Assembly (NCBI RefSeq): GCF_009858175.1
Contig: NZ_CP047393.1
Location: 2,480,001 to 2,544,000, forward strand
Length of the DNA: 64,000 nt
Direction: 5' to 3'
Origin: Pontibacillus sp. HMF3514
Lineage (GTDB): Bacteria; Bacillota; Bacilli; Bacillales; BH030062
Below, piece after piece: positions 53,764-63,095 of the stretch; within the stretch, counting starts at the first letter, position 1, and each line of letters begins with the position of its first letter. A model generated the notes under the pieces. The model was not told the DNA's origin, made no database searches, and was given only the letters and a program-made list of their open reading frames with translations. Made by a program: the position numbers and the translations under genes.

Positions 53764-54213
53764 TTAGAGCATATCCAGGAATCGATCACGAATTTGAACC
53801 GAATCATCCTCTGTACGACAAATGATCATACAAGTATCGTCTCCACAGATCGTTCCTAAAATCTCATCCCATTCTAAATTATCAATTAATGCGCCGATCG
53901 CATTCGCATTTCCGGGTAATGTCTTCATAACGATAAAATGACCCGCTGTATCAATTCTTACAAATGCATCAATCATAAGTCGTTTTAGTTTCTCAAAAGG
54001 GTTAAAGCGCTGATCAGCTGGTAGGCTATACTTATATCTGCCATCTACCATAGGCACTTTAACCAAATGGAGTTCTTTAATATCACGGGAAACCGTAGCT
54101 TGAGTTACATTGTAGCCTAAGCTTTTGAGTCGATCCACTAACTCATCTTGTGTTTCGATATCATTTTCAGCAATAAGTTCTCTTATCTTGATATGCCGTT
54201 GTCCTTTGTTCAT
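53764..54213 (-). CDS. argR: Arginine repressor (ArgR/AhrC)
   Basis: The 149-residue protein has an N-terminal winged helix with [18 protein letters not shown] and a C-terminal oligomerisation/arginine-binding domain ending in [16 protein letters not shown], with the paired Asp that bind arginine. It represses arginine synthesis and activates catabolism. It is conserved in this place between tlyA and recN. A terminator separates it from the tlyA-like gene. Confidence 0.95.
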
Positions 54214-55150: not shown

Positions 55151-57043
55151 TCAAGCCCTTTGCTTTTTTTCTGGTATTAACTGTTTCAAACGCTTCATGA
55201 TCTCATCTTTTGTCAGGCCGATTTCGTTGTAAAGTTCTTTGACGCTACCATGTTCGATATAACGATCTGGGATACCCATGCGTTCAATCGTCTGGTTATG
55301 GCACTTATTCTCTTCAGCGAATTCAAGAACACCACTACCAAAACCACCTTTAAGAACGGCTTCTTCTATCGTTAATATAGGCATATTCATGTCCATTAGA
55401 TCGTGTAGCATCGCTTCATCCATTGGTTTAATAAATCGAGCATTAATGACACGAACCGATAAGCCCTGGCTTTCAAGTTCTTTACTTGCTTCAAGAGCCA
55501 TTGGGATTGTTGTACCAAACGTTAAAATCGCTGCATCTTTACCTTCTTTAAGTACTTCCCAAGAACCAATAGGAATGCTCTTCAATTCTTTATCCATTTC
55601 TACGCCTAAACCATTACCTCTTGGGTAACGAATTCCGATCGGACCATCATCATACTCCATTGCTGTCTGAACCATGTGCTGGCCTTCATTTTCATCCTTA
55701 GGCATCATGAGCGTCATGTTTGGTAAGGAACGTAAAAAGGCAACATCGAAAACGCCTTGGTGCGTTTCACCATCTGCGCCAACGAGTCCTGCACGGTCAA
55801 TACCAAACATCACATTCAGGTTTTGGCGGCACACATCGTGAACGAGTTGGTCATATCCACGTTGTAAAAACGTTGAATATATCGCTAGAAATGGCTTCAT
55901 ACCTTGTGTTGCCATGCCAGCAGATAACGTAGTTGCATGCTGTTCTGCAATCCCAACATCAAATAAACGGTCTGGGAATTCTTCTTTAAACTTTTCAAGC
56001 TTAGATCCAAGAATCATTGCAGGTGTAATGACAGCAAGTCGATTGTCTTTACGTGCAATAACACGTAAGGATTCACTAATGACATCACTCCAAGCAGGAG
56101 GAGCATCTGTTGCCTTGATTTTCTCACCTGATTCAATCTTATAAGGACCAACACCGTGCCACTTATCTTTTTGATCCGTTTCAGCAGGGTGATATCCTTT
56201 ACCTTTTTGCGTCATAACATGCACGAGTACAGGTCCTTCTGTTTTCTTTGCATACTCAAGGTTTTCAAATAAATCCTCAAAGTTATGCCCATCTACCGGT
56301 CCATAATAGGTAAACCCGAGTTCTTCGAAGAACATTCCAGGAACCATGAAATACTTCATGCTATCTTTCATACGCTCAGCAACCGTTGCAAGACGTCCAC
56401 CTACAGCTGGAATACGTTTGAGCAACCATTCCATTTCATCTTTCATCCAGTGATATTTATGTGCACTTCTCATGCGCCCTAATACGTTGTGCAATGCACC
56501 AACATTGTGAGCAATTGACATTTCATTATCATTTAAAATAACCACTACATTTTTCTTCTCGTCTCCGATATGGTTTAACGCTTCAAGCGCCATACCACCT
56601 GTGAGAGCTCCATCTCCTATAATGGGAACAATGGAGTTGTCCTCACCTTTCATATCACGAGCAATCGCCATACCCATAGCCGCTGATAATGAAGTTGAGC
56701 TATGTCCTGTTTCCCATACATCATGCTCACTTTCATTGCGCTTTGGAAAGCCGCAAAGGCCCTGATATTGACGCAGTGTATCAAATTGGCCTGTACGACC
56801 TGTTAAAATCTTGTGTATATAAGATTGATGACCCACATCCCAGACAAACTTGTCCTCTGGGCTGTTAAATACTTTATGAAGAGCAAGCGTTAACTCGACT
56901 ACTCCCAAGTTGGCACCTAAGTGACCACCTGTAACAGAAAGCTTTTCAATTAAAAAGTTTCTCACAGTAGAGGCTAACTTTTCTAGTTCTTCATTCGAGC
57001 ATTCTTTTAAAAATGACGGGTCTTGTATCTCGTTTAGATCCAT
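55151..57043 (-). CDS. dxs: 1-deoxy-D-xylulose-5-phosphate synthase
   Basis: The 630-residue protein is of the transketolase superfamily. It contains [17 protein letters not shown], the thiamine diphosphate motif [16 protein letters not shown]...NDNEMS and the pyrimidine domain segment [17 protein letters not shown] with the conserved Glu. It condenses pyruvate and glyceraldehyde 3-phosphate, the first step of the MEP isoprenoid route. It lies 22 bp after oapA, so dxs, OLE RNA and oapA are probably cotranscribed with ispA. Confidence 0.95.
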
Positions 57044-57065: not shown

Positions 57066-57659
57066 TCAATTTCTGGAGGTTTTCTTCTCCCTCGGTAATA
57101 AATTAATATTAAGCTTTCTCTCAATAAGGGCAATAATACGTGCTGCGAAGAATATAATATCAGTCGAAGAGTGGACAGCAAAGTATTTCCCCATTGCTTT
57201 CCCTCCAACTGTGACTGCAGCAACAATACTTGTGAAAATAACGGAAATGACAAACTGAAGAGTGCTTCCATCTGATTGTCCAAAAATCTGTGCTATACGT
57301 AGAACAACAATGGCTGCAGCTGTACCACTAATAACACCAGCTATATCCCCGATTACGTCATTACAAAAACTTGCAAATCGATCAGCATTGCGCACAATAA
57401 TAATAGCTTCTTTGGAACCGTTTACTTTTTCTGCTGCCATGGCGTGAAATGGTACTTCATCAGCCGCCGTGGCTGCAATTCCAAGCATATCAAAAAGCAC
57501 CCCTATGATTACAATCGTAAATACGATTATAATACCAACCAGATAGAAAACATCATTTAATATAAATGTAGAAATAACTGAAAAAATAGCCGCTAACACG
57601 AACGTGATAACGGCGATACCCAAGCTAAATTTTAGTGACTTTTGTAATTGTGTCTTCAT
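57066..57659 (-). CDS. oapA: OLE-associated membrane protein OapA
   Basis: The 197-residue protein has four hydrophobic segments (about 10-33, 36-63, 98-128 and 130-150) and an acidic patch after helix 2 (FDMLGIAATAADEVPFHAM). It lies directly downstream of the OLE RNA locus and upstream of dxs. This is the arrangement described for the OLE ribonucleoprotein of Bacillus halodurans, where OapA anchors OLE RNA in the membrane. AGAGGT precedes the ATG. No other function is evident. The assignment rests on gene context and topology and is strong. Confidence 0.9.
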   Translation of the reverse strand: MKTQLQKSLKFSLGIAVITFVLAAIFSVISTFILNDVFYLVGIIIVFTIVIIGVLFDMLGIAATAADEVPFHAMAAEKVNGSKEAIIIVRNADRFASFCNDVIGDIAGVISGTAAAIVVLRIAQIFGQSDGSTLQFVISVIFTSIVAAVTVGGKAMGKYFAVHSSTDIIFFAARIIALIERKLNINLLPREKKTSRN

Positions 57660-57700
57660 GGATTACCTCTATATATATCAATCATAGTTTATGTATCGAG

Positions 57701-58306
57701 CAGGATGGTCACCTAAAAGATAAAAACTGCGGCTTAGGTCCAGTAGGTTTTCCCAAGCAGATACTGCGTGTTGCCACGACAGCGGTTCCCCTTCAAATCT
57801 GCCTTAGCACCGTCACCGGTTACTAGACTGGATTGCCACTTAGTCCGCACTATAATCCCTCTTAGGTGTCCATGCGAACAGTCTAGGAGATTTCCTCGGC
57901 AGCCTTTGGCCGTTTCTTAGCCTCTTTTGCAGCGCTGATTTCATATGGTCGGGTAAGTGTCGTTGTAGTGGCCATCTACTCTAACACCTAAAAGCCATAA
58001 TCCCCTCAGAGCCACTCAAGGCAGGCTACGCTGTGGACCGATTAATCTTCCCAAAAGCGATCTCACAGGTTCATACCCCATTTCATAGCAGACGTTTGAG
58101 AACAGCCTCCTACAAATATGGGCCTCCGCGGAAGCAGGGTCAACGCCCACATGCCTTTGTGGATCGCCCTGCGACCTTAACTCCCAGCATCGACCCAAGG
58201 CTGGGCGCCTCAAGCCAACACAAGGAACTTCATCGATGTGCCCTTTGGCGGATTTTTAGGCCCGCCTTCAGAAACGGAGGGCCGACTAGAATACTGCACC
58301 ATCCTG
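57701..58306 (-). ncRNA. ole: OLE RNA (ornate large extremophilic RNA), about 606 nt
   Basis: No protein gene fits this 700-bp gap between ispA and oapA, yet it is GC-richer than its surroundings and full of paired segments. The ends close on each other: the 5' end reads CAGGATGGTGCAGTATTC and the 3' end GGTGACCATCCTG on the minus strand. The size, the multi-stem content with GGCGGGCCT...GGCCCTCC and AAGGCTGCCGAGGAAATC, and the placement beside oapA identify OLE RNA. It forms a membrane complex with OapA that helps the cell withstand short-chain alcohols, cold and Mg2+ or carbon stress in the studied alkaliphile. Exact processed ends are approximate. Confidence 0.9.
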
Positions 58307-58363
58307 TTTATATTACTAATATATCATATTCGTCTGACATCCTCAATCCACAGCTAATAACAA

Positions 58364-59248
58364 TTATTTCTTTCGATGCTGAATGTAGTCAATAAATTCC
58401 TCTAAAAGCGTACTATCGACGCCTGCTTCCTTCAAAGCTTCTTTTGCTTGACTAGCATAGTAGTCCCTTTTATCAATGGCACCTTGAAGCCCTAAAAGCT
58501 GAGGATACGTACTTTTAGAATTGTTTTCATCACTACCAACAGGTTTCCCCATCTCTTCTTCATCGCCAATTACATCTAAAATGTCATCCTGTACCTGAAA
58601 AAGTAAGCCAAGATGTCTTGCATATTTTTCAATGGATTGTAATTGACTTTGATTCGCTCCACCAACGTAAGCTCCAGCAACCGCTGAAAAACGAAGTAAC
58701 TCGCCTGTTTTGTGCTTATGGATCTCTTCAAGCTTTGCAACAGTCAATTCTTGGTTTTCTGCTTCCATATCAAGCATTTGACCAGCTACCATACCTTCTG
58801 CTCCACTTGCCTTGGAAAGCTCCCTACTAAGATAGACTTTCTCTTCATCTTGCAAAAGGTCATGATTCGTAATAGCGAAAAAAGAAGCTGTTAGTAAACC
58901 GTCACCTGCTAAAATAGCTGTTGCATCATCAAATTTTTTATGATTAGTTGGCATACCTCTTCGGATATCATCATTATCCATAGCCGGCAAATCATCATGA
59001 ATAAGCGAATAGGTATGTACCATCTCTACAGCACAGCCTACTGGTAGGGCACGGTTAGGCGATCCTCCATAAGCTTCACAAGCCATGAGAAGTAAAATGG
59101 GGCGAATTCGTTTTCCGCCTGCCTGAATGGAATACAACATCGAATCTCGTAAGCGCTCAGGCACTTGTAGCGAGTAGACGAATTGTTCTAACTGTTGATT
59201 AATCGTGTCCATGTAACCACTGATATAATCCGTTAACGTATTAGTCAC
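58364..59248 (-). CDS. ispA: Farnesyl diphosphate synthase (polyprenyl synthase)
   Basis: The 294-residue protein has the two Asp-rich motifs of trans-prenyltransferases: DDLPAMD in [17 protein letters not shown] and DDILD in [21 protein letters not shown] is the isopentenyl diphosphate site. It condenses IPP with DMAPP and GPP. The GTG at 59248 overlaps the xseB stop (GTGACTAA) and has GGGGGAAG upstream; MTNTLTDYI aligns with the B. subtilis N-terminus. OLE RNA follows on the same strand. Confidence 0.9.
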
Positions 59249-59495
59249 TATCTTCTTCCCCCTGGACAGAGAAAGACTCAAATTCACCTTGTTCGTTCAT
59301 GATTTGTTTCATTTGTTTTTCCACATGCATTAATTTATCATTACACATTTTCGAAAGCTTCATGCCTTCTTGATAATAAGTAATTGCCTTTTCAAGAGGT
59401 ACATCTCCCTCTTCAAGCTTATCTACTAGTTCTTCTAATTGTTTCATTGCTTCTTCAAAACTGAGTTCTTCCTGTTGGACTTCTTTATCACTCAT
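59241..59495 (-). CDS. xseB: Exodeoxyribonuclease VII small subunit
   Basis: The 84-residue protein has the conserved core [28 protein letters not shown] in pieces and [16 protein letters not shown]. It forms the helical arm of exonuclease VII with XseA. GAGGAGG precedes the ATG, which overlaps the xseA stop by 8 bp. Confidence 0.95.
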
Positions 59496-62678: not shown

Positions 62679-63080
62679 TTATTCTTCTGGCAGTTCTTCT
62701 TCTTCCTCTTCTTTATCCATTTGAACCCCAACAATATGAACATTAATCTCTTTAATCTCAAGAGCAGTCATATTCTTAAGGGCTTGACGTGTATTATCTT
62801 GAATTTTTTGAGCTGTTTTTGGAATGGAAATACCAAAGTCCATCACGACATAGATATCAAGGACGATGCCATCTTCAGCTAATTCAACCTTTACACCTTT
62901 ACCGTGGTTTTTCTTACCTAAGCGCTCGGCTACACCTGTTGCGAAGTTTCCACGCATTTCAGCGACGCCGGCAACTTCGGAAGCAGCAATACCTGCGATG
63001 ACTTCAATCACTTCCGGAGCAATCTCAACTTCACCTAAGTTTGACCCTTCACCAACACTTAATAAATGATTTTCACTCAT
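62679..63080 (-). CDS. yqhY: Asp23/Gls24-family protein (YqhY)
   Basis: The 133-residue protein has the Asp23 fold: LGEVEIAPEVIEVIAGIAASEV, VAEMRGNFATGVAERLG and DIYVVMDFGISIPKTAQKIQ, then a very acidic tail (DKEEEEEELPEE). Its place after accC matches YqhY, which in B. subtilis is linked to control of acetyl-CoA carboxylase. The ATG at 63080 has AAGGGAG upstream. It is followed by a terminator. Confidence 0.9.
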   Translation of the reverse strand: MSENHLLSVGEGSNLGEVEIAPEVIEVIAGIAASEVAGVAEMRGNFATGVAERLGKKNHGKGVKVELAEDGIVLDIYVVMDFGISIPKTAQKIQDNTRQALKNMTALEIKEINVHIVGVQMDKEEEEEELPEE

Positions 63081-63095
63081 GACGGTCACTCCCTT

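Follow-up and report, generated by a model that had tools for sequence, protein, structure and literature searches.

A further OLE RNA beside its partner gene oapA, between ispA and dxs, in Pontibacillus sp. HMF3514

OLE RNAs are among the largest structured bacterial RNAs, with a biochemical job and a mechanism that are unsettled in the literature. In Halalkalibacterium halodurans, loss of the OLE ribonucleoprotein (RNP) impairs growth in the cold, with alcohol, at raised Mg2+, and on non-glucose carbon, and its protein OapA resembles Mg2+ transporters (PMC10898510 and PMC12265935, in the available parts of both). The published OLE structure, as far as it is given in the accessible text of PMC12265935, contains helices P1 and P3; P3 is proposed there to cross the bilayer, with P3 and P3.1 typically summing to 12 pairs. 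Bacteria with OLE reportedly tend to carry no more than one MpfA. We found no paper on OLE RNA in Pontibacillus among the open-access papers searched.

We analyzed a window of 64,000 nucleotides from the genome of Pontibacillus sp. HMF3514, on which positions are counted here unless another locus is named. A sequence-only reading had singled out a 606-nt region without a gene, with matched ends, between ispA and a four-helix membrane gene upstream of dxs, and had recognized in it the arrangement of the OLE RNP. The covariance-model search that it proposed gave a highly significant match to RF01071, the Rfam OLE model (E = 1.9e-149), spanning the full model (positions 1-616) at 519.4 bits versus a gathering score of 50. 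The gap between ispA and oapA measures 704 nt and holds this one full-length match, and the outer ends of helix P1 (nine pairs) are exactly 606 nt apart, so that both the region and its interpretation were borne out. No other OLE match occurred in the whole 3.98-Mb genome, and none of 14 control genomes had an RF01071 match. Judging from the promoter motif and P1, the RNA would extend from about 58311 to about 57701 on the minus strand. Open reading frames overlap OLE, for example, one of 120 aa at 58033-58395 (+), and are regarded as chance. The stretch encodes an OLE RNA that is an ordinary, genuine member of the known class; it is new here only as a further member of that class, and this copy by itself adds little. 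The features of the locus are collected in Table 1.

Table 1. Positions of the OLE RNA gene, its structural elements, and associated genes; cited papers are meant in their available parts
Feature	Position	Strand	Basis
OLE RNA gene (model match)	57689..58318	-	RF01071, 519.4 bits
Predicted extended -10 promoter of ole	58318..58346	-	Motif conservation
Helix P1, 5' arm, CAGGATGGT	58298..58306	-	Covariation
Helix P1, 3' arm, ACCATCCTG	57701..57709	-	Covariation
Helix P3 core, 5' strand, CCGTTTCT	58270..58277	-	Alignment, covariation
Helix P3 core, 3' strand, AGAAACGG	57910..57917	-	Alignment, covariation
P4 hairpin with A-rich loop	58247..58266	-	Sequence; published A-A dimer contact (PMC12286853)
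Self-complementary TGGCCA, P9 tip	57969..57974	-	Sequence; published kissing-loop dimer contact (PMC12286853, PMC12265935)
oapA, 197-aa membrane protein (OLE-associated protein A)	57066..57659	-	Position, kinship, hydropathy
ispA, farnesyl diphosphate synthase	58364..59287	-	Pfam and NCBIfam
dxs, 1-deoxy-D-xylulose-5-phosphate synthase, downstream of oapA	55151..57043	-	Pfam and NCBIfam
Two CNNM-CBS-CorC genes, own genome	L012:1483-2766; L013:1492-2712		Domain search

The neighboring genes ispA and dxs were confirmed by domain families, and oapA lies directly downstream of OLE, its usual side in the class, starting 29 nt past the end of the model match. Its product resembles the OapA class, which is defined by a size of ~21 kDa and four predicted membrane helices: four strong hydropathy windows were found (19-residue means of at least 2.08) with a marginal fifth (1.57), in agreement with the four helices read earlier. 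The protein matched no Pfam or NCBIfam family, so it is named from its position and its kinship. As to a distant relation of OapA to CNNM/MpfA, six of nine family genomes had weak CNNM matches at their oapA locus (20-27 bits, under the 28.4 cut-off), and there was none at the oapA locus of the window. An OapA search returned at least 535 relatives; in all 80 that were kept, OLE was located just upstream of oapA, and tblastn placed OapA within the 1.5-kb flank of OLE in 30 of the 30 phylum loci returned; both samples favor good matches, and the 80-locus set was itself found through OapA. Downstream of dxs is an ArgR-like repressor gene, named from sequence (53764-54213, minus strand). Unpublished work mentioned in the available part of PMC12265935 has ArgR as a candidate OLE partner.

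Among the 80 loci kept, a set that may leave out records of the window's own genome, the closest OapA was that of Pontibacillus marinus (99% identity). The P. marinus OLE also gave the best nhmmer score to the window OLE after the window OLE itself (616.5 versus 666.4 bits). Within the set compared, the highest OLE identities to the window, after the window itself, were 96% and then 90%; the OLE sequences of loci L006 and L015 were identical. All nine family genomes searched, the window's included, carry OLE, as do 284 of 398 genomes sampled from the phylum; it was absent from the 15 same-order or same-class genomes listed from that phylum sample, which has 94 further negatives outside the listing. 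The sequence-only reading had taken OLE as the mark of an extremophilic member of the Bacillaceae. The affiliation agrees with the Pontibacillus-like OapA, but OLE is so widespread in the phylum that its presence alone has no power to identify such a strain.

Helices P1 (nine pairs between its two arms) and P3 (a core of eight pairs) were followed in two sets of OLE sequences. The Bacillaceae set consisted of 84 sequences, that is, 89 OLE loci (nine from the family genomes and 80 obtained via OapA) minus five duplicates; two of the 84 are metagenome-assembled genomes named only to family or order. The diverse set was made of 70 of the 284 positive genomes (30 phylum loci returned plus 40 hand-picked matches, about one per family), leaning to high scores and with short variant OLEs left out. 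Canonical pairs made up 97.9% of P1 in the Bacillaceae set, versus 90.3% with shuffled partners (maximum, 92.5%), and 95.7% in the diverse set, versus 75.7% (maximum, 78.9%). For the P3 core the corresponding values were 97.6% versus 91.1% (maximum, 92.6%) and 93.2% versus 65.1% (maximum, 70.4%). Partner shuffling breaks relatedness, so these contrasts are not probabilities. Pairs changing on both sides numbered five of nine (n = 84) and eight of nine (n = 70) in P1, and seven of eight in each set in the P3 core. P1 and P3 thus covary in relatives. Since both belong to the published structure, as presented in the accessible text of PMC12265935, these helices are not new. The Rfam consensus leaves them unpaired (RF01071 positions 1-53, about 384-405, and 596-616), although they covary, and the model could be improved.

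The predicted promoter of ole is composed of TTGAGG (58346-58341), a 17-nt spacer, and TATATT (58323-58318) preceded by TG. The pattern TGnTAnnnT occurred no more than 55 nt upstream of P1 in all 84 distinct Bacillaceae upstream regions; 200 single-letter shuffles gave a mean of 10.5 and at most 19. This contrast overstates the evidence because the pattern was picked after inspecting the sequences and is shared by descent. TTGAG was present in 58 of the 84 regions, with a spacing of 17 nt in 50 and of 18 nt in three. A general promoter scan of the region detected no excess over shuffles (16 found, 18.5 expected), and the promoter claim is therefore carried by conservation. The ole gene of H. 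halodurans has its own promoter, according to the available part of PMC9723947, which cites earlier work.

A promoter-like motif followed by OLE, oapA, and dxs, all on the same strand, is also what would be seen if the RNA were a long cis-acting leader, a riboswitch-like attenuator of oapA-dxs, and not a trans-acting RNA. We judge this very improbable and rejected it: the match covers the full OLE family model, the minus-strand scan listed no terminator-like site where OLE meets oapA, the one weak site within OLE (58135-58122) falls in the P6-P7 region, and in H. halodurans OLE reportedly accumulates as an abundant RNA of its own, ~630 nt long (PMC9723947, available part). A decayed, non-functional copy is held to be extremely improbable. 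The covariance-model alignment does contain a few non-standard consensus pairs, and among the nine family genomes the window's has the lowest OLE score; the difference is small, however (519.4 versus 522.2-539.6 bits in the eight others), the promoter motif is intact, as are P1 and P3, and oapA is a full-length open frame. This reading was also rejected.

Genes for the other known partners were located elsewhere in the genome, including oapB and oapC, for which the sequence-only reading had advised looking. The best PDB match of OapB was 7k9b, "OLE-associated protein B" (E = 6.6e-33); it is a 112-residue open reading frame with a putative TTG start and no Pfam family, and its gene sits between map and infA (both read from sequence, infA also by Pfam). 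OapC/YbxF is an 83-aa L7Ae-family protein that matches the solved YbxF (E ~2e-22), encoded between genes named from sequence as rpoC and rpsL; the genome has a second L7Ae-family gene as well, and one bS21 gene. OapB and OapC are not universal in the OLE class.

The locus is almost certainly an ole-oapA pair, whose products would form a membrane RNP with OapB, OapC, and bS21 that has a role in stress adaptation. What the sequence itself shows is the OLE RNA with its helices P1 and P3, the genes of its partners, and the promoter motif. Transcription, membrane localization, dimerization, protein binding, and stress function would carry over from relatives, and the role described in H. halodurans most likely applies to this strain. 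The OLE RNA would have an extended -10 promoter of its own, immediately before P1, and read-through from the isoprenoid operon probably adds OLE transcript. The RNA would then fold and dimerize via its P4, P5/P6, and P9 loops, be anchored to the membrane by OapA, and bind OapB, OapC (YbxF), and bS21, encoded elsewhere. The resulting RNP most likely helps the cell to adapt when it is cold, when alcohol or excess Mg2+ is present, or when carbon sources are poor, in part at least by way of divalent-metal homeostasis through OapA, a putative relative of CNNM. The dimer loops were also considered for a new covariation test, which was dropped because the available part of PMC12286853 already reports evolutionary conservation of intermolecular OLE contacts.

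The dimensions of P3 bear on the published membrane-crossing proposal. Over 154 sequences, the strands of P3 measured 14-17 nt on the 5' side (SD, 0.5) and 18-23 nt on the 3' side (SD, 0.9). The duplex predicted from them had 10-15 pairs, with a mean of 13.0; species-swapped partners gave a mean of 8.8 pairs over 600 draws. Strand identity was 43-50% in the diverse set (n = 70). Expressed as coefficients of variation (CV), P3 strand lengths varied by 0.036-0.044 at identities of 0.43-0.57, and the P13 segments were at least as length-fixed (CV, 0.021-0.023; identity, 0.50-0.60). P7, P8, the P9 tip, and the P11 region were much more length-variable (CV, 0.12-0.18), and P5 plus P6 were fixed in length and conserved in sequence too. 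Segment boundaries came from MAFFT alignment columns and are imperfect, with at least one sequence having a P9 segment length of 0. Fixed length as proof of membrane crossing was rejected, as P13 is at least as fixed at comparable identity. The P3 length would be explained equally well if the helix set a constant distance between two packed domains; the result agrees with a ruler, and the membrane is not singled out. A helix free in sequence and nearly fixed in length offers a way to put the published proposal to the test.

The genome of the window encodes two proteins with CNNM, CBS, and CorC_HlyC domains, that is, of MpfA type. Full domain architecture refers to these two only; MpfA counts elsewhere are CNNM matches above 100 bits, as in the family set, where seven of nine genomes had at least two. 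Among 37 OLE-bearing genomes, picked from the 80 OapA relatives and including five Pontibacillus genomes also in the family set, 35 had at least one CNNM protein, 15 had at least two, and two had none, for a total of 60 proteins (~1.6 each). The 15 listed same-order or same-class genomes without OLE had 50 (~3.3 each), with at least two in 13 of the 15; six of these genomes, all from one family, are larger (5.6-7.3 Mb), and the six same-order OLE-less genomes averaged 3.0. Mutual exclusion of OLE and MpfA was not borne out in this group, in which the two systems commonly coexist. CNNM proteins are fewer in OLE-bearing than in OLE-less genomes, in the same direction as the published trend. With a complete set of known OLE parts and two MpfA-type transporters together in a single bacterium, a genetic test of whether OLE and MpfA replace each other becomes possible in such strains. 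It is conceivable, and in our estimate unlikely, that P3/P3.1 forms a fixed-length, sequence-indifferent ruler through the bilayer beside OapA, with the two RNA domains on opposite sides, and that in strains with two MpfA-type transporters OLE has a task for which MpfA cannot substitute.

Farther along the window, a gene for an Asp23-family protein (Pfam PF03780) at 62679-63089 (-) is presumably YqhY. YqhY is listed among ole-associated genes in the available part of PMC12265935. A terminator-like hairpin of 13 pairs (62664-62633, minus strand) directly follows this gene and suggests that a transcript ends between the Asp23-family gene and a nusB-like one, named from sequence. Between the same two genes, on the strand opposite the operon, is an Rfam match to Bacillaceae-1 RNA (RF01690; 62510-62576, plus strand; 61.6 bits; E = 7.1e-9).

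Compared with the OLE of H. halodurans (RF01071), the window has the same full-length model match, the same oapA gene downstream, and the same ispA/dxs neighborhood, and genes for all four H. halodurans partners, OapA, OapB, OapC, and bS21, are present in its genome. The A-rich P4 loop, the P5/P6 hairpin loops, and the self-complementary P9 tip of the Clostridium acetobutylicum cryo-EM dimer, as described in the available part of PMC12286853, recur in the window sequence, although C. acetobutylicum is of a different lineage. In the MpfA comparison (PMC11332333), the window genome differs from the H. halodurans system in that it keeps two full MpfA-type proteins.
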